Below are positions 1 to 42,354 of a stretch of 64,000 nucleotides of DNA, piece by piece. The stretch is from Sulfurimonas denitrificans DSM 1251 (GTDB lineage: Bacteria > Campylobacterota > Campylobacteria > Campylobacterales > Sulfurimonadaceae), in contig NC_007575.1 in the NCBI RefSeq assembly GCF_000012965.1, forward strand, positions 1,674,001-1,738,000, given 5' to 3'. The notes below the pieces were generated by a model, which worked only from the letters and a program-made list of their open reading frames with translations, did not search any database and was not told the origin of the DNA. A program made the position numbers and the translations under genes. Positions within the stretch are counted from its first letter, which is position 1. Each line of letters starts with the position of its first letter.

Positions 1-564
1 GAGATTCCATTGATAAGTGCTGGTGTGAAAAAAGACATAATGGGAACTATAAAAAGTTTATTGGGAAATAATAAATCTGAGCCTTTAAAACATTATGTAT
101 TTAATGACACTAAACAAAAATGGAACGAAGTAAAGCATTATATTGGAAAAAATTATTATACGCTAACAGCAGATGGAGAAGGTGGAAATATTACAAAAAG
201 AGCCAAAGAAAATTATCCAAAAGGGTTTTACACTACTAATATTTGTAAAACTTTAGAATTTAATGAGGCAGATATACAGGATGATTATTTCTATATGTCT
301 TATAAATTCACAAAATACAAATATAATTTTGATTTTGGTAATAAAGCAAATAACGATAATTTATCTTTCATAAAAATTACCTTACCTGAGAATCATAATC
401 TCTATTCATCTTTAGATTTACAAAAAATATTAATAGAATTTTGGAATAGTATTTTACAAAGTATAGATAATCAATTTGAAAAATTTGAAAATATTACTAT
501 ACTAACTGATAAAATAGATGAAGCTTTTTTATATAGAACTTTTAGCAAAATAGAATGGAGATAA
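1..564 (+). CDS. Hypothetical protein, 5' end outside the window
   Basis: The reading frame is open to the left window edge; three sense codons precede the first possible start, a TTG at 10, so the true start is probably upstream. About 187 residues are visible. They are rich in Lys, Asn, Tyr and Phe, with no membrane segment, signal peptide or motif that I recognise. The TAA stop at 562-564 overlaps the ATGATG of the next gene, which argues for translational coupling with the McrBC-like pair. It may be an accessory or specificity subunit of that locus, but that rests only on position. Base composition is very AT-rich, like the next two genes and unlike the chromosomal genes after 6600. Confidence 0.6.
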   Translation, partial: EIPLISAGVKKDIMGTIKSLLGNNKSEPLKHYVFNDTKQKWNEVKHYIGKNYYTLTADGEGGNITKRAKENYPKGFYTTNICKTLEFNEADIQDDYFYMSYKFTKYKYNFDFGNKANNDNLSFIKITLPENHNLYSSLDLQKILIEFWNSILQSIDNQFEKFENITILTDKIDEAFLYRTFSKIEWR

Positions 565-6631: not shown

Positions 6632-7810
6632 TTATGTTCTATAATCAGCGTTAATCTTAACATATTCATGACCTAAATCACAGCCATAAGCTTTAAAACT
6701 GCCCTCGCCTACGCCTAAATCACAGCTAATTGTGAATTTTTTATGCTGCATTATAACCGCACATTTTTTCTCCATCTCTGCGTCAAAGAGTATCTCGCCT
6801 CTATCATAAACACAAAGATTATCAAATGATATTTTTAGCTTCTCTTCATAAGCTTCAACTCCACTAGCTCCTATTGTAGAAGCAATTCTTCCCCAGTTTG
6901 GGTCTTCGCCAAATAGCGCAGTTTTAACAAGTAGTGAATCTGAGAGCGCTTTTGCAGCAATTTCTGCCTCTCTATCATCTCTAGCACCGCTTACTTTATA
7001 AGTTACAAGCTTTGTTGCACCCTCTCCATCTCTTACCATCTCTAGTGCCAAAAAGTGCATAACTTTAAAGAGAGCCTCTTTAAATGCCTCTTTATCATAA
7101 GCACCACTTCTTGAGTTTGCTAAAAGTAAAACCGTATCATTTGTTGAAGTATCTCCATCAACACTAATAGCGTTAAAGGTGGTTTTTACCACTTCATCTA
7201 AAATCTCTTGCATCTCGGCTCTGCTTACTTTTGCATCAGTTGTAATAAAACAGAGCATTGTTGCCATAGCAGGATTTATCATCCCAGCACCTTTTGCAAT
7301 TGCCCCTATGTTGAAACTGCTTCCATCGTCGAGCTTTACGTTAAAGGAGATTTCTTTGGGAAATGTATCAGTTGTCATAATAGCCCTTGAAGCGCTACTA
7401 GAATCTCGTTTTCTTAAATCAAAAAGTTTCATGCCCTCTATGATTTTAACTTTAGGAAGTCTAACCCCAATAACTCCTGTTGAGCTCATAATAGGATTCT
7501 TTACATGTAGAGGAGAGTTTGATAAAACCTCTTTTATATCTTCAATCCCTGCTTTGCCAGTCATTGCGTTTGCATTTTTTGAGTTTATGACTATAAAGTT
7601 TGATTTAACATTACCCATCTCTCTAAAATGTCTAATTGGCGCTGCGCACATCTTGTTTGTAGTAAAAACAGAAGCAACCTCACACTCATCTTCACTATAG
7701 ATAAATGCCATATCTTTAGCACCCTCTTTTTTAAGTCCTGCACTGATTCCATCAGCAAAAAAACCTTTACTAGCACATACTCCGAGGCTTGAATAGATTA
7801 TATTATACAA
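6632..7810 (-). CDS. argJ: Bifunctional ornithine acetyltransferase / N-acetylglutamate synthase ArgJ
   Basis: 392 aa, the usual ArgJ length. ArgJ moves the acetyl group from N-acetylornithine to glutamate in arginine synthesis. The self-cleavage site is clear near residue 180: GAGMINPAMATML, where the Thr after MA becomes the nucleophile of the beta chain. The N-terminus (GVCASKGFFADGISAGLKK) and INSKNANAMTG also fit. Its start overlaps the stop of the potassium-channel gene by 8 bp, so both are read from one leftward transcript that begins with rpmB. Whether it also makes N-acetylglutamate from acetyl-CoA cannot be told from sequence alone. Confidence 0.95.
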   Translation of the reverse strand: MYNIIYSSLGVCASKGFFADGISAGLKKEGAKDMAFIYSEDECEVASVFTTNKMCAAPIRHFREMGNVKSNFIVINSKNANAMTGKAGIEDIKEVLSNSPLHVKNPIMSSTGVIGVRLPKVKIIEGMKLFDLRKRDSSSASRAIMTTDTFPKEISFNVKLDDGSSFNIGAIAKGAGMINPAMATMLCFITTDAKVSRAEMQEILDEVVKTTFNAISVDGDTSTNDTVLLLANSRSGAYDKEAFKEALFKVMHFLALEMVRDGEGATKLVTYKVSGARDDREAEIAAKALSDSLLVKTALFGEDPNWGRIASTIGASGVEAYEEKLKISFDNLCVYDRGEILFDAEMEKKCAVIMQHKKFTISCDLGVGEGSFKAYGCDLGHEYVKINADYRT

Positions 7811-23697: not shown

Positions 23698-23754
23698 ACT
23701 CATTTGTAAGCTAACTTTCAGCCCCCCTTAGATAAAATCACGCTCTTAAAAGAT

Positions 23755-23830
23755 GGCCAATTAGCTCAGTCGGTAGAGCAAATGACTGAAAATCATTGTG
23801 TCCTTGGTTCGATTCCGAGATTGGCCACCA
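23755..23830 (+). tRNA. tRNA-Phe (GAA), copy 1, integration site
   Basis: 76 nt including an encoded CCA. Acceptor stem GGCCAAT pairs with ATTGGCC; D-loop TAGCTCAGTCGGTAGAGC; anticodon loop CTGAAAA (anticodon GAA) on stem AATGA/TCATT; T-arm GGTTCGATTCC. A TAAAAT box lies at 23733-23738, but I see no good -35. From the anticodon stem to just past the CCA, 49 nt are repeated at 42306, so this gene is the left attachment site of the element. Confidence 0.98.
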
Positions 23831-23831
23831 C
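23783..23831 (+). repeat. attL: 49-bp direct repeat, left copy
   Basis: The 3' 48 nt of tRNA-Phe copy 1 plus one base are identical to 42306-42354. Integration into the 3' part of a tRNA, leaving the gene whole, is the usual habit of tyrosine integrases. The intact integrase lies next to the other copy. Confidence 0.93.
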
Positions 23832-23900
23832 TTTAAAACCCCAAAAATATGAGGTTTCAGAGGCTTTTAAAAAGTTCTTTAAGTTTTGTTAAAAAACTTT

Positions 23901-23921
23901 TTTTACTACAATTTTACTACA
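23901..23921 (+). repeat. Paired TTTTACTACA sites, left end
   Basis: TTTTACTACA occurs twice, 11 bp apart, 70 bp inside attL. The same 10-mer occurs twice, 12 bp apart, near the other end (42157-42178). Such paired short repeats inside both ends are what arm-type integrase binding sites look like. Binding itself is inferred. Confidence 0.5.
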
Positions 23922-23923
23922 GC

Positions 23924-23952
23924 TTGATTTTTACTGCTAAAATGGATAAAAT
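23924..23952 (+). promoter_or_regulatory. Sigma-70-type promoter of tRNA-Phe copy 2
   Basis: TTGATT (23924) and TAAAAT (23947) are separated by exactly 17 bp, and the second box ends 13 bp before the tRNA. This suggests the second tRNA gene is expressed. Confidence 0.65.
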
Positions 23953-23965
23953 TCAAACAATTTAT

Positions 23966-24041
23966 GGCTAATTAGCTCAGTCGGTAGAGCAGTTGACTGA
24001 AAATCAACGTGTCCTTGGTTCGATTCCGAGATTAGCCACCA
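23966..24041 (+). tRNA. tRNA-Phe (GAA), copy 2, inside the element
   Basis: 76 nt with encoded CCA. Acceptor GGCTAAT/ATTAGCC, anticodon stem GTTGA/TCAAC, anticodon GAA. D-arm, T-arm and loops equal those of copy 1, but both variable stems differ with pairing kept, so this is a functional, diverged gene and not a decayed duplicate. It has its own promoter and is followed by an integrase remnant. It lies inside the att boundaries, so it is either element-borne or left over from an earlier integration. Confidence 0.97.
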
Positions 24042-24096
24042 CTTCATAATCTCTAAAATACGAACTTTAAACTACTTTTAACCAACACTTTAAGAT

Positions 24097-24549
24097 ATGT
24101 TTCTTTTAAGAGGACGCAGGAGCAATGAAGTGAGAACTCTTCACTTTGAGGATATTGATTTTGAAAACAAACTCTATACAGTAAGAGACAAAAACAACAA
24201 AACCCGTAAAAATATGACTTATATGTTAGACGATGAACTCATAGAACATCTTGAAATTATAAGAGAAAGTAAAGGCTTAATTTTTAAGTCACCGATAACA
24301 GGTGAAAAATTAACAGCTATTCCAAAAAAGCTATGGGCTCGAATACAGGAAGAAGTCGGTATTAAAATGCGCATTCATGATTTTAGGCATCTACTAGGCT
24401 TTACGCTTGTAAATAATAATGTACCGTTAGAGTATATATCCAAAGCTTTGGGACACTCTAAAATAACTACCACGCAAAGATACTCAAATCAAAAAGAGTT
24501 AATGGCAAAAGAAGCTGTTGATGTGTTTTTGGGGATTGTTAAAAAATGA
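24097..24549 (+). pseudogene. Tyrosine recombinase remnant, catalytic domain only
   Basis: 150 codons covering only the C-terminal catalytic domain: the first Arg in GRRSNEVRTL, a basic hairpin NKTRKNM, HDFRH (HxxR), LGHSKITTTQ and the Tyr in RYSN. The core-binding half is missing; an in-frame stop lies just before the ATG at 24097. It starts 55 bp after tRNA-Phe copy 2, the usual place for an integrase of an element in that tRNA. It is not closely similar to the intact integrase at 40292. Probably the relic of an older element. Confidence 0.85.
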
Positions 24550-24645: not shown

Positions 24646-24815
24646 TCTCTTTGCTCTTAAAAAAAATCCCCGCTCTTGAACTCTATCGAAAAACACTGGC
24701 TACTTCAATAACCTTTCAAATGTTCAAAGCATGTGAATTTTAACCGAGTTCGGACGAGGTGGTCGGCAAAGCCGAAATATTCATGTGCGAAAATGTATTT
24801 GTGTCTTTGGCTCTT
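24646..24815. repeat. RNA-like structured repeat, copy 1
   Basis: This ~170-bp unit occurs again at 25518. Shared blocks: TCTCTTTGCTCTTAAAAA at the left, a 46-bp identical core (24718-24763), then AATATTCAT and GCGAAAATGT, then GCTCTT. GCATGTGAAT (24729) can pair with ATTCATGTGC (24779) as a 10-bp RNA stem with two G-U pairs; inside it are CCG-AGTT-CGG and the hairpin CGGC-AAA-GCCG (24764-24774). The strand that is active is unknown. No gene is seen in 24550-24889 apart from this unit; a short CTAC-CTTT-GTAG hairpin lies at its left. Confidence 0.7.
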
Positions 24816-25517: not shown

Positions 25518-25690
25518 TCTCTTTGCTCTTAAAAACCCTCGCTCTGAAATTTTAAATAAAAAAACGAACTGCGTATATGATGCTAGAAATGTTCAAAGCA
25601 TGTGAATTTTAACCGAGTTCGGACGAGGTGGTTTTGAACTCGTTCAAAAAATATTCATTTGCGAAAATGTGTTTGCGTTCACTCGCTCTT
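25518..25690. repeat. RNA-like structured repeat, copy 2
   Basis: Second copy of the unit at 24646, same orientation, with the 46-bp identical core at 25587-25632. Where copy 1 has CGGC-AAA-GCCG, this copy has TTTTGAA-CTCG-TTCAAAA (25632-25649): unrelated sequence, but again a perfect hairpin. The outer stem GCATGTGAAT/ATTCATTTGC is kept with one mismatch. The unit touches the coupling-protein stop codon at 25689. It fills most of the 229-bp gap to the zinc-ribbon gene. Confidence 0.7.
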
Positions 25691-27197
25691 AAGATGCTTG
25701 AGCCGCTTGCATTGTTGCACTTGCACCGTTTGACTTTTTGTTTTTGGTCTTTTGATACTCTTCGTTCTGCCATCTGTAGAAATCGTCCACTTTTGTATCA
25801 TAGATAAAATCTTTGTGTATCATAGGATAATCCACATAATCACTTTTACCGACATAGAGTGCGCCGCTCTCCGGTAGATATGTCACATGATGAAAATTAG
25901 CAGATAGTTTATCCATCTCCGACCAGTCTAATATATTTGACTCTTTTGTGGTTTCGCTTTGGTGGTTGTTTACTGTTTTGTAAATACCATATTCCCATTT
26001 ACCTATTTTTTTATCCAAAATCTCTCTTGTGCTAATATCTTGAACAGAAAATATCATTAAACCAAAACATGTTGAAATTAGCAGATCTCTTTCTTCTTCA
26101 TCTGATGGTAGCTTTTGAAGAGCAGAAAGAATTGCAGAGCCTTTTGAGCGTGTCATAGTGTGCAGAATCTTTCTCGCTTCCATTATTAAATTTATTGATA
26201 GGTACTCATCGAGCAAAAACGCCGTGATTGATTTTGAAACAACATACTCCGGTTGTGATGCTTGATGCATCGCAACGCAAGCAGTAAAACCTGTAAAAAG
26301 TGGGTTCAAGCTGATTCTATATGTATTTTTCATCAACATCCAAATTTTACTTTGATGTTTTCTCTCGTACCAGTCGCTAATTGTAAAGCTTTTTTTGCCT
26401 TGCTCTATTAAAAAAGCCGTCATTTGAAGAGGCTCTAATATGAGTTTCATAGTGGATGCTACATCTTTTGCACTCTTTTGATTTCCTGTTTCAATCTCTT
26501 TAAACATGTACTCAAGCTCTGCTAGAAAAACTTTCCATTTTTCTTTTGGGTCTTGAATATCAATAGTTAGCTTTGCGATTTGTGAGTATCTTTCTCTTGC
26601 AGAACTGCTGAAAAAACTTTCATCTTTTGTGGCTTCATTAAGAGCGTTTACGATATAAAACTCTATTATAGGTATGGGTTCTGACATCAAATCCCAGCAT
26701 GACCCTCTTTCATCAAAAGGATTTAAAATAAAGTCCTTTCGCTTGTTGTAAAACTTAGTCAACATATCGCCTTTTTGCTCATTCACGAGCATTCTGTCGT
26801 AAAAATCGTTATCTATCCAATTCATAAGAGTAGTGGTTTTGCCGCCTTTCATCGGAGCTATGAGAAGAAAACTCTCAACAAAAGACAAAGCTGGGATATG
26901 AATTTGAGCAGGTTTAAAAAATGGGAATTTTAATGGCGATAGCTCTCTTTTAAATCTATCGCTAAAAACAAAATTATCAAGCTTTATATTATTTTTTGCA
27001 CTCTTTTTAAATCTGTTTTTTAAATTGGTGTTGTTCCACCAAAAGTTACCTTTCAATCTTTTTGAGGGATTTGGAAAACTGCTATCCGAGAACGGATGCC
27101 AATTTATGCCCTCGATATCAAATCGTTTTTTTTCGTAATACCACATTAGTGTCAATATTGGCACTAATATATACATCGCAAATTCAAACATATTCAT
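25689..27197 (-). CDS. Type IV coupling protein (TraD/TrwB family)
   Basis: 502 aa. One N-terminal membrane helix (MNMFEFAMYILVPILTLMWYY), then a RecA/FtsK-type ATPase. Walker A is IAPMKGGKTTTL, with Ala in place of the first Gly; the downstream ILNPFDERGSCWDLM is the conserved NPFD.R..WD block of TrwB/TraD; Walker B is AFLLDEYLS. Coupling proteins bring the relaxase-DNA complex to the mating pore. It follows the relaxase gene by 10 bp. It is shorter than E. coli TraD because the C-terminal tail is minimal. Confidence 0.88.
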   Translation of the reverse strand: MNMFEFAMYILVPILTLMWYYEKKRFDIEGINWHPFSDSSFPNPSKRLKGNFWWNNTNLKNRFKKSAKNNIKLDNFVFSDRFKRELSPLKFPFFKPAQIHIPALSFVESFLLIAPMKGGKTTTLMNWIDNDFYDRMLVNEQKGDMLTKFYNKRKDFILNPFDERGSCWDLMSEPIPIIEFYIVNALNEATKDESFFSSSARERYSQIAKLTIDIQDPKEKWKVFLAELEYMFKEIETGNQKSAKDVASTMKLILEPLQMTAFLIEQGKKSFTISDWYERKHQSKIWMLMKNTYRISLNPLFTGFTACVAMHQASQPEYVVSKSITAFLLDEYLSINLIMEARKILHTMTRSKGSAILSALQKLPSDEEERDLLISTCFGLMIFSVQDISTREILDKKIGKWEYGIYKTVNNHQSETTKESNILDWSEMDKLSANFHHVTYLPESGALYVGKSDYVDYPMIHKDFIYDTKVDDFYRWQNEEYQKTKNKKSNGASATMQAAQAS

Positions 27198-27207
27198 AAT
27201 TTACCCC

Positions 27208-30200
27208 TCATCTTTCATTTTCTATTTCTCTGGTATGTTTTAACTGTTTATCAAACAGATTAGACATATCAACCGCTTTGTGCATTGCATCCTTGAATAT
27301 TTCAAGAGTAGGATTTTCAAGTACTTCTACTACATCTTGAGCTAGGTGTTTGAATGATTCTAACGCCTCTTGAGTGATTTCACGCATATCATAGTTTAAT
27401 GCCATGTCCTCAAGAACTCCTAAATCTTGCTCACTTGTGATAATATCTTTGATGCCTGTTTCATCTGATAGATATCTTTGGATATCCTCAACTCTTTCGT
27501 ACAGTTCACTTGCTTTATCGATTTTATCAATAAAGCTTTCTTTTTCTTGTTCCCTTGCTAAGTTTTGTTTTTCTCCCTCTTGATTGTTGATTTCTTGTGT
27601 TGCCTCTTGATACTTAGCATTTTCTTCTCTTCGTTTGTCATAAACGGTTTGCATACTTTCCCCTTTTATTTGGATGGTTGGCTGTTGAGTTCTGCCAACG
27701 ACATTAATCTCTGGTCGCACTGTAATATTTGCATCTCTTCTGAACCTGTTTGCCAAGTTATTGAGTGTATCGCTCTGCAAAAGCAAGTCACTGAGTCGCT
27801 TGATGTTTGATACCACAACGCTGTTGGACAACTTGTGCAGCAGGTTAATGGTCTTTTGTTCTCTTGCAGTGCTTCTATCACTGGACTTATGTAACCCTTG
27901 AATTTTTGTGAGCTCATTTGCTCTCCTTTTTAAAATTTCTTCTGTGTTGTAATCTAGCGTACTTCGTTTTACTTGTCTTTCCGCCACTGCATCCCTGAAC
28001 TGTTCTTTGTCTTGAGTGTAAATAGATATATGAGCTTTTGCCCTTGTAAGAGCTACATAAAAAGCATTTTGACTGCTGAGGCGGCTATCGCCTACAAATA
28101 TACTTCTCTCGCTTGTTTGCCCTTGCGCTTTATGATTTGTGATTGCGTATGCGTGGTCAATGTAGTTGTACTCCTTTGTGTTGATTTTTATCTCTTTTTT
28201 ACCTGTATCAACGGTTAAAAAGCCGTCTTTTATCTCTTTAACCGTTCCGATATCGCCGTTATTTAATCCGAGTGATTTATCTTTTTTAGTGAAGATGATT
28301 TTGTCATTTTGGCTAAACTCCTTTTGAGTGGTTTTATATAAGTTGAGCTTGTCGCCATGCTCGCCTAGATTTACTTCTTTACTATTGCCTTTGGCATCTT
28401 GCAAAGTGATAGAGTTTAATTCTTCATTTACGGATGCAATGACTGCCTCTGTACCGCTTTTTAAGCTCCCCTTGTAACTTCCTGCTTGCTGCACCATATC
28501 GCCTACCTCATAGCTCGTATAATGATGAACTGATATGCTGTCTAGTTGTTGTTTTTCCTGAATATGCAAAATTTGATGACTTGAAATAGAGTTGTCTTTT
28601 TTCAGCTCATCTCTTATAAGTTCGTTGAGTTCTTGTCTTGTTTGATTTTTCATAACAAGTAATAAAGTGTTGTCTTTATCTTGAAGATACTCTTTTACAA
28701 CGCTTGAATAATCCTCTGCTTCGATTGTTTGAAACTGATTTTTACTCTCAAGAATGTCAAGCACTGCATCAGTTTTTTGCTCTTTTGTGAGCTTGTAAAG
28801 CTCTTTCATATCTGCTGTTTTTGCTCGCATGCTCTCTGCCATAACTGCAACTTCAATAGCACCTTTTGCTTGAAGCTGCTCGAAAATTGCACCTGCACCG
28901 ATTGAAGTGAACTGTTTAGTATCCCCCATCAAAACAAGCTTTGAATTTGTTTGTTGTGCTATGTCTGTGAGCTTTTGCATTTTACGACTGTCTACCATTG
29001 AGGCTTCGTCCACTATGATGATTTGATTTTGCTTGTGTTGTCTTTGATGTATGAAGCTGTCTATCGTTTGCCCTTTTATACCGCTCTCTTTTGAGATTTC
29101 ATCGGCTGCCTTGTTTGTAGGTGCTAAACCTATCAAATTATCTTTTTTATGCAGCTTTTGAAACTCTTTAACGGCTTTGAGCATAAAAGTTTTACCTACC
29201 CCTGCATCTCCTTGAATTCCTAAAATTGCATCTTTGGAAGTTAGAACATGACTAAAAGCTTCTTTTTGCCCTGCGGTCATAGTAGAGAAATTTTCAGACA
29301 AGAATTGCTCTGCTTTGTCTAGCGTAGTTTCAGCTTGTGCTGTATTTTTACTCTCTTGCGCATAGGTTAAAATCTCTCTCTCAATATTTATCATCTCTTG
29401 TGTTGTATAAATATTCTCATCGAGTTTGATGATGTCTGAATTTAATACCGCATTTTCAAGCGTAGATAAATCGTAGGTATAAGATTGAATTGCATTTAGT
29501 TTTATCGCTCTTGATAGTATCTCTTCACTCGTAAAAGTTGACTCATGCTCGGTTGTGAGCTGTGCAGCTTTTTGAGTTAGCTCGTCAAGAGATAAGATTT
29601 TTTGATTTGATTTTTCAAGGTTTTGGATTTGATGGATAGTTTCTTTTGTGAAGCCTGTATTCTCAACTAAGTTTTTATTTTTTAGCTCTATTTCTTCTAA
29701 CTCACTATAAGAATGTGATTGCTTATAGTTTCTAGTTTCCAGTGTTGCGATTTGTCTAAGTTGTGACTCGTTGGCATTTGGATATTTTCTCAAAAGCTCT
29801 TTTCTATTTTCTAAAAGCCATTTTTCAATTTCTGCGGTTCTTGTCGATATCGAGTTTCTAGCTTCTTGAGTTACTCCCTTTATTTCTAAGATGTCTTTTT
29901 GGATATCTAAAACCTCGCTTTGAAAACCTAACTTTTGCATCTCTTGAAAAAGCTCTTGATGATAGATTTGAGTAATGAGCTTTTGATTATCGTATAGCTG
30001 CTTATTGTCTATACTTACGAGTTCGCCTTTTGAGTTTATAGTTTGGTTTGCGATGAAACAATGAGTATGGATTTTTATCTCTTCATTGCGATTGCTAAGA
30101 TGTTGAAACTTAGCGATTGCAAGTCCGTTATTTTGAAAGTGCTCTCTGCCATTTTCGTTTCTCATTCTGTAGGTTATATATCTACTTGCTTTTTCAAGTG

Positions 30201-30546
30201 CAAGATTTACAGCTCTGTCTTGAGCTTGTAGAATTGATTTTTTAAGCTCATCGTTTGCGACTGCATAAATTACATCTATACTTTTGCTCGGACTAAAAGT
30301 AATATCAAAACCAGCACGCTGATTTCCAGTTGCATTGCCTTTGAGATTTTGATTTATAAGGTCTGCAAAATCTTGATAACTCTCTTTTGTAATTGCTGAT
30401 TGATGAGCAATGTTTTGATAGCGATTTGACATTTCACCAGTGATATGCCACTCGCCCAACTCTTGGTTTTTTTGATAGTAATCAAGATCTTGTTGAAAGT
30501 AGTTTTCGGCTTGAGCTGAACTTTGCCAGCTTGATATTGACATCAT
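27208..30546 (-). CDS. MobF conjugative relaxase-helicase (TrwC/TraI family)
   Basis: 1112 aa. The N-terminal ~290 residues are a TrwC relaxase: Tyr residues in YFQQDLDYYQK, GFDITFSPSKSIDVIYA, and the metal site HTHCFIANQT. A RecD-like helicase follows: Walker A GDAGVGKTFML, Walker B IIIVDEASMVD, a C-terminal motif AYAITNHKAQGQT. The last ~200 residues are charged and probably coiled. It nicks one strand at oriT and unwinds it during transfer. GGAGG lies 7 nt before the first of two adjacent ATGs. It is the key gene that marks the element as mobilizable. Confidence 0.93.
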   Translation of the reverse strand: MMSISSWQSSAQAENYFQQDLDYYQKNQELGEWHITGEMSNRYQNIAHQSAITKESYQDFADLINQNLKGNATGNQRAGFDITFSPSKSIDVIYAVANDELKKSILQAQDRAVNLALEKASRYITYRMRNENGREHFQNNGLAIAKFQHLSNRNEEIKIHTHCFIANQTINSKGELVSIDNKQLYDNQKLITQIYHQELFQEMQKLGFQSEVLDIQKDILEIKGVTQEARNSISTRTAEIEKWLLENRKELLRKYPNANESQLRQIATLETRNYKQSHSYSELEEIELKNKNLVENTGFTKETIHQIQNLEKSNQKILSLDELTQKAAQLTTEHESTFTSEEILSRAIKLNAIQSYTYDLSTLENAVLNSDIIKLDENIYTTQEMINIEREILTYAQESKNTAQAETTLDKAEQFLSENFSTMTAGQKEAFSHVLTSKDAILGIQGDAGVGKTFMLKAVKEFQKLHKKDNLIGLAPTNKAADEISKESGIKGQTIDSFIHQRQHKQNQIIIVDEASMVDSRKMQKLTDIAQQTNSKLVLMGDTKQFTSIGAGAIFEQLQAKGAIEVAVMAESMRAKTADMKELYKLTKEQKTDAVLDILESKNQFQTIEAEDYSSVVKEYLQDKDNTLLLVMKNQTRQELNELIRDELKKDNSISSHQILHIQEKQQLDSISVHHYTSYEVGDMVQQAGSYKGSLKSGTEAVIASVNEELNSITLQDAKGNSKEVNLGEHGDKLNLYKTTQKEFSQNDKIIFTKKDKSLGLNNGDIGTVKEIKDGFLTVDTGKKEIKINTKEYNYIDHAYAITNHKAQGQTSERSIFVGDSRLSSQNAFYVALTRAKAHISIYTQDKEQFRDAVAERQVKRSTLDYNTEEILKRRANELTKIQGLHKSSDRSTAREQKTINLLHKLSNSVVVSNIKRLSDLLLQSDTLNNLANRFRRDANITVRPEINVVGRTQQPTIQIKGESMQTVYDKRREENAKYQEATQEINNQEGEKQNLAREQEKESFIDKIDKASELYERVEDIQRYLSDETGIKDIITSEQDLGVLEDMALNYDMREITQEALESFKHLAQDVVEVLENPTLEIFKDAMHKAVDMSNLFDKQLKHTREIENER

Positions 30547-30573
30547 GTGATTACCTCCTTTTTTTGAAATTTA

Positions 30574-31317
30574 CTAGATAGCGTTTTTTCTTTCTATGAT
30601 TGTCTGCAAATCCTTTTTAAGTTCTTTGAGCTTGGTTTCAGAGAATTGATGAATTTGGCTGTTGTGTTTGTTTGTTTCTTCAACTTGGTTACTGATAACT
30701 TTCCACAAAAAATCTCTTTTATCTTCTATAGATTTTGTGATAGAAATATACATTTTTTGAATTGTTGGCTCTTCTATACTATCAACTAGAGCCTTGTTTA
30801 AAACAAGCAAACCATCCAGCTCAGTGTTTAATAAATTTTTTAAGGCTCCAACTACTTTCTCGTTTAATTCTGAAAAATCAGAAATCGTTTCTAAAGTTGC
30901 TTCTTGTCTTCTTTCTATATAGTGTTGTTGTTCCCGAACATAATTTAAAACGTTTCCATCAATAGCTTTTTCCTGTAAAATATGTATAGCGTATTTTTCC
31001 ATCTCTATAAAATACTTACGAACTTCTTTACCTTTTGAACTTCTTGAGGACATGGCTATATGCTTTGCTGCATCAAGTGTAATGATGTAATCAAATTCAG
31101 GTCTTCCGCCTTGTTGTAGGTTTTTCGGATTTTTCCGAATAACCTCAAAATCTAGTTTTTCTTCTAGGTCTAAAGTTTCAATCTGATACTTTATCCAGTT
31201 TGAATATTTGTCTTGACTTCCTAACTCTTCCCACAACTCCCTTGAATTCACTGTTTGAAGCTTTTCTTCGCCTATTTTATTATTTGTAACTTTTATTATT
31301 TGCACTGGTTTTTTCAT
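30574..31317 (-). CDS. Phage-type antirepressor (AntA/AntB-like)
   Basis: 247 aa. Residues ~20-115 match the AntA/AntB antirepressor domain: TVNSRELWEELGSQDKYSNWI and FDYIITLDAAKHIAMSSRSSKGKEVRKYFIEMEK. The rest is helical, with no other domain that I recognise. Antirepressors inactivate repressors, releasing a lytic or transfer programme. It sits just upstream of the relaxase in the same direction, with the 22-bp shared motif and the iteron array before it. A role in switching transfer on is a fair inference. Confidence 0.85.
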   Translation of the reverse strand: MKKPVQIIKVTNNKIGEEKLQTVNSRELWEELGSQDKYSNWIKYQIETLDLEEKLDFEVIRKNPKNLQQGGRPEFDYIITLDAAKHIAMSSRSSKGKEVRKYFIEMEKYAIHILQEKAIDGNVLNYVREQQHYIERRQEATLETISDFSELNEKVVGALKNLLNTELDGLLVLNKALVDSIEEPTIQKMYISITKSIEDKRDFLWKVISNQVEETNKHNSQIHQFSETKLKELKKDLQTIIERKNAI

Positions 31318-31347
31318 TTTGGTTTCCTGAATTGGTCTTGGTTTTTA

Positions 31348-31369
31348 ATGGTAGGTATTAAGTATTAAA
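31348..31369 (-). promoter_or_regulatory. 22-bp shared upstream motif, copy A
   Basis: 19 of 22 bases match a site at 33510-33531. Copy A lies 30 bp before the antirepressor start, copy B 29 bp before the start of the coiled-coil gene. Equal position and sequence (core TTAATACCTAC-like on the minus strand) suggest a common operator or promoter. Confidence 0.55.
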
Positions 31370-31464
31370 CGAAAATTAAAGTGAATTTGAGAAAAAAACG
31401 ATAATTTTCACCGATTTTTAAAGCAGCTCACCCAAATGGGCGTGGGGTGTGTCTCTTCTTTTGT

Positions 31465-31530
31465 TTCTCAATATGTTCTCAAAACATTCTCAATATGTTC
31501 TCAATATGTTCTCAAAACATTCTCAATATG
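31465..31530. repeat. Six 11-bp iterons in pattern ABAABA
   Basis: Six head-to-tail 11-bp units: A = TTCTCAATATG, B = TTCTCAAAACA, in the order A B A A B A, i.e. a 33-bp block repeated twice. An 11-bp period puts units on one face of the helix. They lie between the TraK-like gene and the antirepressor. They may be a partition centromere, an oriT accessory site or an operator. No spacers are present, so it is not a CRISPR. Confidence 0.85.
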
Positions 31531-31555
31531 TTCCTATGCCCTAGAATAGGGCTTT

Positions 31556-31873
31556 TCAGCTATCACTTGGAAAAAAGTCACTCATCATCTCGAATGGGTC
31601 TTTTTGATCAGTGGCTTCTTTTTTTTGAATTGTTTTTGGTGCAACATAAATATTTTTGATTGGTGTGCTCGGCTTGACTGATTGAATATTTTGTCGCTTT
31701 AACCAGTAATTTAAATTACGGCTCGTCACATTTACATTTAGCTCTTTGAGGTAAGTACATATCTTAGCTGCTGAATAGCCTCGTCTTTTGAGCTCAAAAA
31801 TATCATCTTTATACTCATGCAAAACCGACTTATACGGTTTTGTATTTTTCAAAAACTTTTCAAGCTTTGACAT
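31556..31873 (-). CDS. TraK-like HTH DNA-binding protein
   Basis: 105 aa. Residues ~18-62 (SVLHEYKDDIFELKRRGYSA followed by AKICTYLKEL and a second helix ending NYWLKRQ) look like the KfrB/TraK-type HTH found in RP4 TraK, which binds oriT. The C-terminal third is basic and disordered. It follows the ParA-like gene by 8 bp, the same order relation as traK and traL in RP4 transfer operons, and the iteron array starts 25 bp beyond its stop. It is the best candidate for the iteron-binding partner of the ATPase. Confidence 0.6.
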   Translation of the reverse strand: MSKLEKFLKNTKPYKSVLHEYKDDIFELKRRGYSAAKICTYLKELNVNVTSRNLNYWLKRQNIQSVKPSTPIKNIYVAPKTIQKKEATDQKDPFEMMSDFFPSDS

Positions 31874-31881
31874 TTTTTAGC

Positions 31882-32637
31882 TCACAAAAGTGAAAGTACA
31901 TGATGACTCAAGGTACTTTTACCCACCCCACCCTTTGTCGAACACACGGCTATGTTTGAAGGTTGTCCGAGCGTGTCTGCTATTTGAGGCATGAATTTGT
32001 CAAGTGTGTTTTTAGCCTCAACTGATTGACAATATTGCCCCCAAAGTTTTAAATATTTATTTTTATCTCGTCCCGATTTTTCAAACATAACTTCTCTGAT
32101 GTCTGGCATTTCGAGAAAAGGCTCACAAATTTGAGCGAACTCGCCGACTGTGTATCCAGCAGTCGCAGCGATCTCAAAAAATGGATTAAGTGGAATCATT
32201 ATTGTTTTTGGATTGTTGAGCTCTTCGAAAAGTGAAGATATACCTAGCGCCTTGTTGCCAAACCAGAACATCCAATCTTTGCGAATTGTTGACATGTCAT
32301 AGACTTGATTTAGAGCAAAAACAGTGTTTTCGGGTCTTCCGATTAACTCAAAAGTATCTTTTGCATTTTTCGCGCTTGATAATGAATTGCCGACAGGAAC
32401 GATATACGTCCAGTCGCCCCTATCGGCTTTTTTGATAATTTCGAGCCCTTTTTTAGAGTCATTTCCACCACCGAGATCAACTATAAGATTTGAACCAGTT
32501 GACATCTGTTCAAAGAGCATCTCCCCGAACGCTTCCTCGCCGTCAGATATTACAACTGATTTTGACTCGATTACTTGTGATTTATGAAACACGTTTGAGT
32601 TGTTGTTATCATCTATTTCTAAAATTATTGTTTTCAT
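31882..32637 (-). CDS. ParA/TraL-like ATPase with C-terminal Walker A (circular permutation)
   Basis: 251 aa. The protein opens with MKTIILEIDDNNNS, which corresponds to the strand after the Walker A helix in ParA proteins. Walker B is LIVDLGGG (~55), then IVPVGNSLSSAKNAKDT (~82) and IMIPLNPFFEI. The deviant Walker A motif that normally starts a ParA, here IAVCSTKGGVGKSTLSHH, lies at residues ~229-246, right before the stop. The upstream gene ends 15 bp before this start, so no missing N-terminus is hidden there; the next gene starts 8 bp after the stop. All ParA motifs are present once, in rotated order. RP4 TraL is a ParA-like protein of similar length (~241 aa) but normal order. Confidence 0.8.
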   Translation of the reverse strand: MKTIILEIDDNNNSNVFHKSQVIESKSVVISDGEEAFGEMLFEQMSTGSNLIVDLGGGNDSKKGLEIIKKADRGDWTYIVPVGNSLSSAKNAKDTFELIGRPENTVFALNQVYDMSTIRKDWMFWFGNKALGISSLFEELNNPKTIMIPLNPFFEIAATAGYTVGEFAQICEPFLEMPDIREVMFEKSGRDKNKYLKLWGQYCQSVEAKNTLDKFMPQIADTLGQPSNIAVCSTKGGVGKSTLSHHVLSLL

Positions 32638-32652
32638 TGTTTTTGCCTTTTT

Positions 32653-33480
32653 TTAATTTTTTGGATTTTTAGCTATCGCTTTTAATGGTATATAATAAAT
32701 ACCATCTTTTTTTTGGGTAACTTCACCCAAATTTTTTAAATAAATCAGAGATTTATCACCATTTGGATTATCAAATATACCAAGGTTGTTGGTATTAACA
32801 CATGGCTCTTTTACCTCTTTTTCAACATAAAAAGGCTTCTCAACATATATTGGTTTTTCGACAATCACCTGTTTTTCAACTATTTTTATCTCTTTTTTGG
32901 CGACTTCGCCCAAGAAAGGTAATGTTACATTGAGGTATGGAGCGACATAAGGCGCTGACATACCCATCCCAAACGCAAAGAGAGCGACCCAAAAGATTTG
33001 ATGGCTTTTGGCTTTTTTTACGTTATTGTTAACGTCTTGAAGAGATTTTTTAATCTCATCTAATTCACTAAAATCAAAATCATTTTTGATTTGAGCTGCT
33101 TTTGTTTTTAAATCTTGAGAAATTAAATTAATTTCACTCTCGATTTTAGAGATGAGAGGTGCAACATCTATGTTTATCTCTTTGTTTTTTATACTTTCGA
33201 GATTTGATATAACTTTGCCCATTCCCTCAAATTTTTTGAGCTCATCAGTATCTTTTTGTATTTGAATAGATATAAAACTAAGCTCTGACAGCAGCTCTTG
33301 CAAGCTTTGTGTGTTTACTATACTTTCACCGACTGGTGGACTTGTAGAGCCTTTGTTTGGAGTGTATTTTTTTGGTGGTTTTTTAGGCTCTTCCAATTTT
33401 TCATTATCTTTATCAAAGATTAAATCGCCCTCTTGAGGCATATTGCTATCTTCTTCTAATATAAAATCATCATCTTTCAT
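32653..33480 (-). CDS. Coiled-coil, single-span membrane protein
   Basis: 275 aa. An acidic, Pro-rich start (residues 1-55) is followed by ~100 residues of predicted coiled coil, one membrane helix (IFWVALFAFGMGMSAPYVAPYL, ~163-184) and an outside part with a repeated EKPxYVEKP motif and one Cys. It is the first gene of a run with the permuted ATPase and the TraK-like gene, behind copy B of the 22-bp motif. A membrane anchor for the DNA-processing complex, comparable in place to RP4 TraM, is possible. No family recognised. Confidence 0.6.
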   Translation of the reverse strand: MKDDDFILEEDSNMPQEGDLIFDKDNEKLEEPKKPPKKYTPNKGSTSPPVGESIVNTQSLQELLSELSFISIQIQKDTDELKKFEGMGKVISNLESIKNKEINIDVAPLISKIESEINLISQDLKTKAAQIKNDFDFSELDEIKKSLQDVNNNVKKAKSHQIFWVALFAFGMGMSAPYVAPYLNVTLPFLGEVAKKEIKIVEKQVIVEKPIYVEKPFYVEKEVKEPCVNTNNLGIFDNPNGDKSLIYLKNLGEVTQKKDGIYYIPLKAIAKNPKN

Positions 33481-33509
33481 TTTTTTTGTATCTCCTTTTG
33501 ATGTTTAAA

Positions 33510-33531
33510 ATAGTAGGTATTTAATATTAAA
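33510..33531 (-). promoter_or_regulatory. 22-bp shared upstream motif, copy B
   Basis: Partner of 31348-31369 (19/22 identical), 29 bp before the coiled-coil gene. On the minus strand it reads TTTAATATTAAATACCTACT and two more bases. Same spacing to the start codon as copy A. Confidence 0.55.
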
Positions 33532-33565
33532 GTTTTTTTAAGCTTCAGTGGCTTGAAAAAATTCA

Positions 33566-33618
33566 ATGCAATCGCCATAGGCGATTGCATATCTTTCGTA
33601 ATCGCATAAGGCGATTAC
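33566..33618 (-). terminator. Two tandem hairpins after the large membrane protein gene
   Basis: ATGCAATCGCC-ATA-GGCGATTGCAT is a perfect 11-bp stem; beside it GTAATCGC-(5)-GCGATTAC is an 8-bp stem that overlaps the stop codon of the 926-aa gene. Both share AATCGC/GCGATT. On the minus strand the outer one is followed by TTGAATTTTTTC, so it probably ends that transcript. Confidence 0.65.
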
Positions 33619-36395
33619 ACACGCATTACTGTTTTTTCGTTCACGCTTTGTAGCGTCTCTCCTACACTATCGCTTACGCTGCTGACTTTCTCATATATCA
33701 GCTCATACATAAAGCCAGGCATCTTCCAAATCATCTGAACAACAAGTATAATTTTAATGATCATAAACGTTACACTGACTAGCCCAAAAACGATATATTT
33801 GTCTAAGAATAGTTTGATGAGTGAAAACAAATTACTAAACTCAAAACTACTAAACATATAGCTCCAGCTCGCATTTTCGATTGAGTCAAGGCTATTAAAT
33901 ACGTTATTTAGAAGTGAAAACTCTAAAAAATTAAGAAGTGAAATTGAGAACATCGATAAAATGACACATACAACAATTAGAATAGTTTTGAAGGCTATTG
34001 CGATAATTTTCGCAAATGCAACTCCCATGCGCTCTTCTTGATTTTTCGCAAAAGCGTAAATCAGTAAAAACATACTTGCAACAAAAGCAAAAAGTTTCTC
34101 GACAAATAAAAGCGTGAAAACAAGTATCGCACTGCCCAAAAATATGGTCATTACTAAACTTGACATAACACTCTTTATTAAAATTGCAGCGATTTTTAAA
34201 TCTATGACGTCATAATCATTGTTGATTTTTGTTTTTTCAGTTATATAATTTAAAGCTTTTCGGCTTAAATTTATGCCTTTTCCTATCGGACCGGAAACAG
34301 TTGAGAGTTGATTAAATAACCAATTTGTGATTGGTTCTTTGACAACATGCACCATTTTTGCGATGTTATGCCCCCCGAAGAGCATTAAAACGGGGATATC
34401 AGTTGCAAGCTCTTTCATTTTCGACTCTGCGAAATCTGTAATAGCATTTTCATTGTTGTCATCGATTTTAGTGGCTTGTTCGAGATCATCCAAAATTCCC
34501 AAATTTTGCAAAACTAGATTGATCACCGGAAGATAAACAATACTTAAGTAGCCCTGCTCTGCAAACATTTTCCACTGAATTTCGTTTACGACTTTCATAT
34601 ATTCAACTTTAGCATCCTTCACAGAAGGGTCTTTAAGCTTCGCAAATTGCGCATCAATCTCTCCTATTCTCTGTTTCGCCGCAATCCATTTTTTAGTGTT
34701 TTCGTAACATCCACTCAAACTCATAGGCGCAAAATTCGGGTCTCTGAACTTCTCTTTTGCGCTCTCTTTAACAAACCCGCTGTCGCTATTTGCAGCAACA
34801 CTGTTGTAAGGACTTATAACAGCTTGATTTGAACTTTGCGCATATTTCATAATCGCTAGCGCTTCCGCCTCACTCTTTGGCCAAGGATTCGCATCTAATG
34901 ACGAAACTTTGCTATCAAACAGCACGGATGAAAAGGTGTTCGCACCGTCGTTTTTGCTCAATGTTGAGGATCTGTATGTTTCTAAAGCACTTTTAATGGC
35001 ATCAACATCATAATTCGCATAACACATCTCTGTGTCAATCGTGCTATAAGACTCCATACTTTTTTGTAGAACTTTCCTCTCAGTCGTCATGGCGTCTATC
35101 TGTTTTTCATTAAAAAGCCCCGTGCTTCCATTCAGACTGTTAAGATAAGCCCGTATCCCAATCTCTGCAAAAGCATCCGCCCAATAGTTCGTTTCACTAT
35201 ATAAAAACTGTATCGCCGCCTGAATATTAGTCTGTTGAATAATCAGTTCGTTTTTTGCAACGCCTTGAGCTTTACTTTCATATTGTATATTTAGCTTTTG
35301 AACATCACCAGCAAACAACATAATTATCGTTAAAAAGCCGACTGTGGTACGTTGAATATGATTACTGTCATAATCCCTTTTTTGCATGATTTTATTGCTT
35401 ATCGCAGGCATAGCCCAAGTCAATATGACGTTATTGACAATAAACACAAACGCAAGAGCTTGCGCCAAAATAACAATAATATCGTTCGCCTTTAGCCAAA
35501 AGTCTAACAGCATAAAATAACTAGAATTTGCGACGGCATCTGCGGCATTTTTAATGCTCACTTGATTAGCGGAATTAGATAGAAACTCGTTTTCACTTTG
35601 AGAGTCAAAGCCCGTGAGCAGTCCTACGAGGTTGCTGAAACTCTTCTCCATCTTTGTAACAATCATTTCATTAGGAAGAGTGGTATATCCGCTTCTCGTT
35701 TTTAACTTTTGAGTTAAAAGCGTCTGCTCAAAGTCAAATATATCAACATTGAAACTAACTATCCCATCCAAAATATCCGCCAAATCCAAAAATTTGGCAT
35801 CTTTGCTATGCTTGTAATCAACCGTATATTTATACTCTTGAGCCTTTAGCTCATTCATATAATCACTGTTCGTTCTTTTAAGCTGCTGCGTTTCCTCGTC
35901 TGTATCTTTATTTTGAGCATCCGAATATTTATCCAAACAACTTTTATTTACAAAAACCTCTGAATATTCAGTGACTTGATTTGTATTCTTTATAGCATCA
36001 GAACTTGAAAAGTTATTAAGATGAACAGAACACCCGATTCTACCGCTTACTAAATCAAAAAAATTCACCCTCGTTGTATATCCGGCATTCACTCTCTCAG
36101 GTGTAAGAGGCGGACAAACATAATCCTTTGGCGAGTCACATGAAGTAAAACTTAAAGGAGTGAACCACGGTTGCTCAGTCTTTATCTTTCCCGCTCTACT
36201 TTCTTCAAACTCTTTCTTATAAGCACTGTCTTCGCCAACCACCGTAACGTCGGTATTTATTTCAACGTTATTTACCCTCTCATCTGCAAAGCTCGTGCTT
36301 CCGCTCGGAAGGTCTTTATTTGCAGCCAATGGGTCATACGCCCAAGCGGTTGCCGTCAAAGCAACCGCAAAAAGTAAAAAAGGTAACTTTTTCAT
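33615..36395 (-). CDS. Large exported multi-span membrane protein (TraG/DotA-TraY-like layout)
   Basis: 926 aa. A signal peptide (MKKLPFLLFAVALTATAWAYD) leads to a ~280-residue outside domain with several cysteines (CDSPKDYVCPP, GCSVHL, KSCLDKYS). Two membrane helices follow near 305-360, then a second long soluble stretch with Cys (CYANYD, CYENTKKW), then ~5 helices in the last 230 residues. The pattern is that of conjugation membrane proteins such as DotA/TraY or TraG, not of transporters. It is the only candidate mating-pore subunit in the element. Family membership is inferred from layout, not from a motif. Confidence 0.55.
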   Translation of the reverse strand: MKKLPFLLFAVALTATAWAYDPLAANKDLPSGSTSFADERVNNVEINTDVTVVGEDSAYKKEFEESRAGKIKTEQPWFTPLSFTSCDSPKDYVCPPLTPERVNAGYTTRVNFFDLVSGRIGCSVHLNNFSSSDAIKNTNQVTEYSEVFVNKSCLDKYSDAQNKDTDEETQQLKRTNSDYMNELKAQEYKYTVDYKHSKDAKFLDLADILDGIVSFNVDIFDFEQTLLTQKLKTRSGYTTLPNEMIVTKMEKSFSNLVGLLTGFDSQSENEFLSNSANQVSIKNAADAVANSSYFMLLDFWLKANDIIVILAQALAFVFIVNNVILTWAMPAISNKIMQKRDYDSNHIQRTTVGFLTIIMLFAGDVQKLNIQYESKAQGVAKNELIIQQTNIQAAIQFLYSETNYWADAFAEIGIRAYLNSLNGSTGLFNEKQIDAMTTERKVLQKSMESYSTIDTEMCYANYDVDAIKSALETYRSSTLSKNDGANTFSSVLFDSKVSSLDANPWPKSEAEALAIMKYAQSSNQAVISPYNSVAANSDSGFVKESAKEKFRDPNFAPMSLSGCYENTKKWIAAKQRIGEIDAQFAKLKDPSVKDAKVEYMKVVNEIQWKMFAEQGYLSIVYLPVINLVLQNLGILDDLEQATKIDDNNENAITDFAESKMKELATDIPVLMLFGGHNIAKMVHVVKEPITNWLFNQLSTVSGPIGKGINLSRKALNYITEKTKINNDYDVIDLKIAAILIKSVMSSLVMTIFLGSAILVFTLLFVEKLFAFVASMFLLIYAFAKNQEERMGVAFAKIIAIAFKTILIVVCVILSMFSISLLNFLEFSLLNNVFNSLDSIENASWSYMFSSFEFSNLFSLIKLFLDKYIVFGLVSVTFMIIKIILVVQMIWKMPGFMYELIYEKVSSVSDSVGETLQSVNEKTVMRV

Positions 36396-40291: not shown

Positions 40292-41398
40292 TTAAAGCAA
40301 CTCCGTCGCCTCATGCCTCTTATTTGGTATGAGGTGAGAGTACCTCATAGTCATTTCAAGGGTCTTGTGCCCTAGTTGCTCTTTTATATGTAAAATATCA
40401 AGCCCTGCCATAGCTAACCAGCTCGCATGAGTGTGTCTTAAGCTATGCACCGTTACTCTTTGCTTTGCGTCTGCTTCTTTGTTTTCATCTATTATATTAT
40501 CAACGACAATCTGCCAGCTGTGCAGCATACGCTCCATCTGTTTGCCTTTTGTATTGGCGATAATGAGATTATTGTTTTTGTCTGCCTTTAATTGCTCTAT
40601 TACTTCTTTTACTAACTCATTCATAAATACCCATCGAGCATTACCGTTTTTTGTAGCTTTAAAATAAATCATATTTGTTTCAAAATTAATGTTGTTCCAT
40701 GTAAGTGATGCGACTTCACTAAATCTTGCACCTGTGTAAAGTAATAAAATCGTAAGCTGATAAAGTTGCGGGTTCTCATATTGCAAGAGCTCATCTAATA
40801 TAACCCTCGCCTGCTCTTTAGATAAAAAAGCTTGTCTTGCGTTGTCTATAGTGGGTAATTTTACTTTGCCACCAGATATTGGGTTTGCATAGTTTTTAAT
40901 GAGGTCGTTTTTGATGGCGTAATTGATGATGTGGCGCATTAAACCGATATAGTGCTTAACTGATTGAGCTGCATAGCCTTTTGAGGTGTAGAGCTGCTTA
41001 AACTGCTCTATATCTTTTGATTTTATTGATTTGATATCTTTGTTTGCAAAAGTAGGGGCGATATGTAGTCTATAATATTGTTCGTCTGAGATATATGTTT
41101 TTTTATTCACTTTAGCCCATTCATAATAAGCTAGCCACGCATCCTCAAAAGTAAACTTTTTAGCTCTTTGAGATTTAAAAGGAGACTCTTCACCGGTCAT
41201 AAGATGATGTTTTGCTTGTATCAATCTATCATAAGCATCTTTAACAGTAAAGTTTGATTGTTTAGTTTTTACGCCTACTTTCTTTTTTACGGGTTTGCCG
41301 TGTTCGTCTCTGTAGTTTATATAATAAGCAATATTACCGTTTTTGAGTTCGTTTATCCAAACACCCTCATATCTTCCGCCAGCTGGTTTTAGTGCCAT
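40292..41398 (-). CDS. int: Site-specific tyrosine integrase
   Basis: 368 aa. An Arm-type DNA-binding domain (residues ~1-65, GVWINELKNGNIAYYINYRD), a core-binding domain (~85-175) and a catalytic domain with Arg in TGARFSEVASL, Lys in KNGNARWV, HSLRHTHAS, GHKTLEMTM and Tyr in RYSHL. It inserts and excises the element at tRNA-Phe. It ends about 1 kb from attR and overlaps the Abi gene start/stop by 1 bp. It ends 4 bp from the convergent regulator gene. Confidence 0.96.
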   Translation of the reverse strand: MALKPAGGRYEGVWINELKNGNIAYYINYRDEHGKPVKKKVGVKTKQSNFTVKDAYDRLIQAKHHLMTGEESPFKSQRAKKFTFEDAWLAYYEWAKVNKKTYISDEQYYRLHIAPTFANKDIKSIKSKDIEQFKQLYTSKGYAAQSVKHYIGLMRHIINYAIKNDLIKNYANPISGGKVKLPTIDNARQAFLSKEQARVILDELLQYENPQLYQLTILLLYTGARFSEVASLTWNNINFETNMIYFKATKNGNARWVFMNELVKEVIEQLKADKNNNLIIANTKGKQMERMLHSWQIVVDNIIDENKEADAKQRVTVHSLRHTHASWLAMAGLDILHIKEQLGHKTLEMTMRYSHLIPNKRHEATELL

Positions 41399-41982: not shown

Positions 41983-42305
41983 ATTTTTTTACCTATAGTG
42001 CGTATTGTAATTCTCTTGTAAGCCTACATCCTAGAGGTGTAGCCTAGAGTTTTAAAAACATTTCTTCTTTCTTAATTATATTTCTCAAAATTTGTTTACC
42101 GCTTCTAAAACTATTATAACTTATGAAACATTGTATTGTATCTAAATATATATTTTTTTTACTACAGTTTTTACTACAAATTTTAAAAAAGCATATATAA
42201 ATATAAAAGAATATAAAAAAGTGACACCTCATTTAAAGCCCTTAAAATAGGTACTTTTCAAAGGATTTGTACGATTTTAAGAAATATTAAAAAACACTAT
42301 TTAAG
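41983..42305. other. AT-rich right end of the element, no gene
   Basis: 323 bp with no credible gene. It holds the Abi promoter region, a hairpin (CTACATCC-TAGA-GGTGTAG, 42024-42042) and the paired TTTTACTACA sites. A 62-codon reading frame on the minus strand (42044-42232) is low-complexity and has no ribosome site. Confidence 0.6.
42157..42178 (+). repeat. Paired TTTTACTACA sites, right end
   Basis: Two copies of TTTTACTACA, 12 bp apart, ending 127 bp before attR. They mirror the pair near attL and have the same orientation on the + strand. Likely arm-type integrase sites. Confidence 0.5.
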
Positions 42306-42354
42306 TGACTGAAAATCATTGTGTCCTTGGTTCGATTCCGAGATTGGCCACCAC
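42306..42354 (+). repeat. attR: 49-bp direct repeat, right copy
   Basis: Identical to 23783-23831. It is the 3' part of tRNA-Phe copy 1 with no D-arm or 5' acceptor strand, hence a tRNA fragment and not a gene. It marks the right boundary of the element. Confidence 0.93.

Follow-up and report, generated by a model that had tools for sequence, protein, structure and literature searches.

A circularly permuted, StbB/TraL/VirC1-like ParA-superfamily ATPase in an integrated element of Sulfurimonas denitrificans

The stretch of Sulfurimonas denitrificans DNA analysed here (64,000 nucleotides, hereafter the window) encodes a 251-residue ATPase of the ParA superfamily in which each landmark of the family is present once and the order of the landmarks is rotated. 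The chain begins with the strand that usually comes after the Walker A helix, while the Walker A motif itself, STKGGVGKST, stands with one helix at the C-terminal end. ATPases of the ParA/MinD class position chromosomes, plasmids, division sites, flagella and conjugation complexes, and one of the commonest molecular switches of bacteria appears to have been rewired here with its fold unbroken. We consider it likely that the protein is a working ParA-superfamily ATPase of the StbB/TraL/VirC1 type, naturally circularly permuted, which positions DNA for conjugation in a mobilizable element. The rotated order, its conservation, the kinship of the protein, its predicted fold and its neighbourhood could all be demonstrated; activity, dimerisation, DNA positioning and origin are inferred, and there are no biochemical data.

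The open reading frame reads MKTIILEIDDNNNSN...SNLIVDLGGGNDS...QPSNIAVCSTKGGVGKSTLSHHVLSLL and then stop, with the Walker A motif nine residues ahead of the stop codon (Table 1). The initial annotation had described a ParA/TraL-like frame on this strand with its motifs rotated, and had taken the tight flanks as a sign that nothing was lost through a missed start or a frameshift; both statements held. The gaps to the adjoining genes are 15 bp upstream (to 32653) and 8 bp downstream (to 31873). M1 lies only five codons from the preceding in-frame stop, which leaves no room for a hidden N-terminal Walker A, and a search of all six frames of 30400-33700 found no second Walker A-like motif, only the C-terminal one. 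An AAGG/AGGA-type ribosome site stands ahead of the ATG here and in the five other permuted copies described below. When the protein was compared with Pfam just the last ~20 residues were matched, and these correspond to the first ~20 of the CbiA/ParA models. No other member of the ATPase family was found in the source genome, so that no normal copy covers for the permuted one.

Table 1. Positions in the window of the permuted ATPase, its motifs and the surrounding element.
Feature	Position	Strand	Evidence or remarks
Circularly permuted ParA-superfamily (StbB/TraL/VirC1-like) ATPase, 251 aa	31882..32637	-	ORF (M1 at 32637, stop ending at 31882); six permuted homologues; AF2 pLDDT 92.2; hhalign E 1.2e-63
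EIDDNN, residues 7-12, β2 end/switch I equivalent, now N-terminal	32602..32619	-	E7, D9, N11 and N12 invariant in permuted and normal homologues
Walker B LIVDLGGG, residues 51-58	32464..32487	-	D54, G56, G57 and G58 invariant
Deviant Walker A STKGGVGKST, residues 233-242, C-terminal	31912..31941	-	Core invariant in six permuted copies; sole Walker A in region; matches StbB residues 2-23
Junction, residues ~223-227, old C-terminal helix joined directly to β1	31957..31971	-	Model H192-223 then E228-231; ~3-4 residues replacing MKK of normal homologues
Left attachment repeat, 3' end of tRNA-Phe	23991..24042	.	52-nt direct repeat family with 42303-42354
Right attachment repeat, 52-nt copy of tRNA-Phe 3' end	42303..42354	.	
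Tyrosine integrase of element	40292..41398	-	PF00589 E 3.5e-26
TrwB-like coupling protein	25689..27197	-	PF10412 E 2.3e-19
MOBF (TrwC-type) relaxase-helicase	27208..30546	-	PF08751 E 3.9e-51; NF041492 MobF 185 bits vs cut-off 100
AntA-type antirepressor-domain protein	30574..31317	-	PF08346 E 3.4e-22
11-bp direct-repeat array, 6 units TTCTCAATATG/TTCTCAAAACA, candidate HTH-protein site	31465..31533	.	Between HTH gene and AntA
TraK/StbA-like small HTH protein, 105 aa, next gene downstream	31556..31873	-	Custom HMM: adjoins most homologues
275-aa protein, upstream partner, StbC/TraM-like position	32653..33480	-	Same-position homologues in L034, L036, L037, L068, L069
926-aa apparent membrane protein of transfer operon	33615..36395	-	Homologues upstream in L068, L073, L039 and others

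Homologues turned up in 72 of about 400 genomes of the order searched at the protein level, and wider sampling across the genus, two families and the phylum yielded more. Among the loci classified by motif position the Walker A is C-terminal in six and N-terminal in every other complete homologue, with more than 40 normal-order homologues in the order. The six permuted loci come from the source genome, three more Sulfurimonas genomes, an Aliarcobacter MAG and a Campylobacteraceae MAG. Homologues with the same motif order in other Campylobacterota, which the initial annotation had set as one of its tests, are thus represented by five further copies, which are intact, free of stops and 45-50% identical to the window copy. 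The S/K/GGVGK/T core, EID, DxGGG and many other positions are invariant across all six. Within the Walker A-α1 segment different codons encode 150 of the 250 residues that are identical in pairwise comparison, showing that the C-terminus is translated and its protein sequence held by selection. Single-sequence pattern scans of genomic and viral contigs gave no matches, and an alignment-based scan succeeded. Matches running as far as query residues 248-251 made three other loci seem permuted, the viral contigs L085 and L086 and the locus L080; all proved to be of normal order. In one Sulfurimonas genome (G114) two different elements (L032 and L041) hold homologues, one permuted and the other of normal order.

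The rotated order, common to six genomes, is confirmed as real and beyond chance. One might have suspected a pseudogene produced by rearrangement, an assembly error or a wrongly annotated start or frame, given that the order is very rare and that most homologues have an N-terminal Walker A. However, the six intact copies were assembled separately, one of them in the single-contig source genome, and they combine the absence of stops with their own ribosome sites, tight operon flanks and no other Walker A in any frame. The conserved homologues and the selected C-terminus refute the pseudogene and mis-assembly readings, and we attach practically no weight to an artefact of any of these kinds.

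AlphaFold2 was run on the window protein with an alignment to 12 relatives, so that only 13 sequences stand behind the models. The permuted protein gave a confident model (pLDDT 92.2, pTM 0.88), which starts at β2 and closes with a long C-terminal helix (192-223), β1 (228-231), the P-loop and α1 (240-250). The transferred β1 and α1 are predicted as strand and helix respectively, the block having a pLDDT of 85-93. A normal-order homologue modelled as a control contains the same elements in the standard order, and the permuted model is this order rotated. Using VIA-align, residues 1..227 of the permuted model were matched to chain residues 31..205 of ParF (5u1g_C; Z 10.9, rmsd 3.0, 167 residues), and residues 2..254 of the control to 1..201 (Z 17.4, rmsd 2.5, 190 residues). 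The match of the permuted model to MinD had a Z of 9.8, the range over ParF and MinD being 161-167 residues and rmsd 3.0-3.1, and MinD and FlhG both show the same pattern as ParF. The ParA fold, the other test set by the initial annotation, was therefore recovered, and both tests came out in favour of its interpretation. ParF/ParA (TP228) and MinD share the fold, and both models find them among their best matches to solved structures, but the permuted model aligns with them only from chain residue ~31, its Walker A segment being at the opposite chain end. Foldseek searches with the permuted model returned only arginases and other unrelated folds, none with an E below 0.001, whereas the control found ParF with an E of 1.6e-7. 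Foldseek is strictly sequential, and the null result reflects this limit of the search and is not counter-evidence to the ParA fold, which VIA-align and the control had given. This is also a practical blind spot, since most of such a permuted protein is missed by profile scans and by Foldseek. The confident model implies that the C-terminal P-loop would lie close to Walker B; the distance was not measured.

Profile comparison with hhalign equates permuted residues 3-226 with positions 34-261 of the normal family (E 1.2e-63). Rotated in silico, the permuted sequence reads MPSNIAVCSTKGGVGKSTLSHHVLSLL-KTIILEIDDNN, compared with MKKVFVIASTKGGVGKTTIASHIMSSVFPGCEILEIDDNN in a normal homologue (L006). 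The old ends are linked by only ~3-4 residues where MKK stood, and the new ends lie in the short connection between α1 and β2. It had been proposed that the new termini fall inside the nucleotide switch. We could not uphold this, as the cut leaves both switch I (EIDDNN) and Walker B uninterrupted and, inferred from the ParA/MinD fold, lies at the end of α1 farthest from the P-loop, off the face of the sandwich dimer and away from the nucleotide site.

The protein has the deviant Walker A with the signature lysine that marks the ParA/MinD class (KGGxGK[ST]), with its core invariant in the six copies, and the aspartates of Walker B (D54) and switch I (D9) are likewise invariant and sit at homologous places in the alignment with normal homologues. 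The linear order of the class, with Walker A near the N-terminus, is met in none of the six, and it is for this reason that we regard the protein as a permuted variant and not as a standard member. The normal-order family is homologous to R388 StbB over 175 columns (E 1.6e-7) and matches the NCBIfam StbB model (NF041292) with an E of 2.5e-8, at a score far below the cut-off for that family. This cut-off of 200 bits is reached neither by the window protein (16.9 bits) nor by the normal homologue L006 (33.6 bits), so we call the protein StbB-like without filing it as StbB. The C-terminal 22 residues of the permuted protein match StbB residues 2-23, and normal-order homologues give weak profile hits to TraL and VirC1. 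As judged from these profiles, R388 StbB, RP4 TraL and VirC1 are distant relatives of the family; TraL, the name used at the outset for its kin, is fair, though among curated models R388 StbB comes closest. StbB resembles the present ATPase in being a ParA-type ATPase encoded beside a small DNA-binding gene, a MOBF relaxase (TrwC) and a coupling protein (TrwB), and the stbDRs of R388 are also direct repeats with an 11-bp period. In contrast, StbB has the normal order and an SGxxGK motif, and the genes in R388 run stbA-stbB where the window has the ATPase and then the HTH gene. RP4 TraL and Agrobacterium VirC1 are, like the window protein, KGGxGK[ST] ParA/MinD ATPases of conjugation modules, but their motif order is normal and the similarity is weak and mostly N-terminal.

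The gene lies in an element of ~18.3 kb that is flanked by 52-nt repeats of the 3' end of a tRNA-Phe gene and carries a tyrosine integrase. The operon comprises, in order, the 926-aa protein, the 275-aa protein, the permuted ATPase, the 105-aa HTH protein, the AntA-type protein, the MOBF relaxase and the TrwB-like coupling protein. It meets the layout of a StbB/TraL module, in which an ATPase sits beside a small DNA-binding gene with a relaxase and a T4CP in the transfer operon. No credible Pfam or NCBIfam family was found for the 926-aa protein, which many such elements conserve upstream of the ATPase, or for the 275-aa protein, which appears to contain a coiled coil and a membrane segment. 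A Lin1244-type putative replication protein is also encoded inside the element. VirB4 was not found in the source genome; the element therefore looks mobilizable and not self-transmissible, and a helper T4SS must be assumed. Arrays phased at 11 bp directly after the HTH gene were seen in only three of the six permuted loci (the window, L068 at ~705-770 and L032 at ~6781-6855); they share the period of the R388 stbDRs but differ from them in sequence.

In R388, both conjugation and the presence of plasmid foci near the poles require StbB (PMC3098194). StbA binds 9-bp repeats with two bases between them, counts RP4 TraK among its homologues and has a role in stability, for which StbB is not needed (PMC3098194). 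The kinship with StbB and the same set of parts, including the TrwC/TrwB-type pair, make a StbB-like delivery of the DNA complex to the transfer channel the best-supported mechanism. With the old C-terminal helix fused head-to-tail to β1-P-loop-α1 and the new ends in the α1-β2 connection, the permuted parts would still assemble into the normal fold, and the protein should still bind ATP, dimerise as a sandwich and hydrolyse the nucleotide. We infer that the TraK/StbA-like HTH protein would bind the 11-bp repeat array near oriT, and that the ATPase, as it alternates between its ATP and ADP states, would bring the HTH-DNA complex to the membrane or the pole for uptake by the T4SS. The HTH protein is the weak link of this mechanism, its kinship with StbA not being established; hhalign gives only a weak profile match to R388 StbA (E 0.0045, probability 8%).

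It is possible that the main task of the ATPase, the HTH protein and the array is ParABS-like partition of the excised, circular element and not conjugation. A ParA fold together with a site-specific-looking array beside a small DNA-binding gene would fit such a role, as would the putative replication protein of the element and the part that StbA plays in the stability of R388 (PMC3098194). We nevertheless think it unlikely. StbB is the one curated family to match the normal homologue over most of its length and is dispensable for stability in R388, and relaxase and coupling-protein genes are present in the loci examined. The permuted protein might also fold but have lost its ATP switch, acting on the HTH-DNA complex as scaffold or regulator, given that the permutation alters chain connectivity beside α1 and that activity data are lacking. 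Yet none of the six copies varies at the signature lysine, the P-loop lysine or the aspartates of Walker B and switch I, and the Walker A segment shows synonymous turnover under a fixed protein sequence, which leaves this reading very improbable.

In a tree of 53 homologues, for which the permuted sequences were rotated back before alignment, the six permuted copies form one group (support 94/98) with long internal branches and one change of order. The group was kept, with weaker support of 64/97, once the Walker A columns and long branches were dropped. The simplest reading, which we favour without regarding it as proved, is a single old event followed by spread between genera. The HTH gene precedes the ATPase in most normal loci and directly follows it in all six permuted loci. 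Origin by simple rotation of the HTH-ATPase pair was rejected, as it predicts the order body-HTH-Walker A where body-Walker A-HTH is observed. The likely origin, by inference, is instead an in-frame tandem duplication of a normal copy, after which the leading Walker A segment and the final body segment were lost. Such a duplication in an ancestor with the ATPase before the HTH gene, the order seen in L028 and L080, is a better fit than rotation of the pair, although not proved. A few normal-order homologues, among them L028, L053, L054 and L080, have the HTH gene after the ATPase, as in the permuted loci.

Natural circular permutation is already known in P-loop switches, with the YRG GTPases broken at β3/α2 and cpRAS at β2/β3 (PMC2430557). 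The window protein resembles YRG (YjeQ/RsgA, YlqF/RbgA) and cpRAS in being a naturally permuted P-loop NTPase with its motifs kept, but these are GTPases with other break points, whereas here a ParA/MinD-class ATPase is broken between α1 and β2. No earlier permuted ParA/MinD protein was found in the literature searched, which mostly did not cover subscription journals; what is new is a StbB-like ParA-class ATPase with a rotated chain. This adds ParA-type ATPases, broken at a new point, to the naturally permuted P-loop switches, which include GTPases such as YjeQ and cpRAS. If the permuted form works, the ParA/MinD class tolerates its nucleotide-binding segment at the other chain end, and the protein offers a natural means of finding out which elements of the switch rely on how the chain is connected, with normal-order sisters in the same kind of elements for direct comparison. 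We advance only with considerable doubt the larger proposal that this is the first natural ParA/MinD permutation and a third break point in P-loop switches (between the G1 and G2 equivalents), and that the permutation matters for function, the site being completed only with the last residues made and the free α1 end or the closed old termini changing the contact with the HTH partner encoded directly downstream.

At the left end of the element two tandem tRNA-Phe genes occupy 23753-24101 (138-nt repeat, 81%), and a third, partial copy lies at 42303-42354. The third copy is 98% like the end of the first gene, and the end of the second gene matches that of the first at 90%. From the sequence alone, these copies suggest that there may have been more than one integration event. 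Beside the tRNA-Phe genes, 24097-24549 holds an integrase C-terminal remnant ~74% identical to an integrase in L040, probably a relic of an earlier element. A 102-nt direct repeat (77%) was also observed near this end, at 24662-24763 and 25531-25632.
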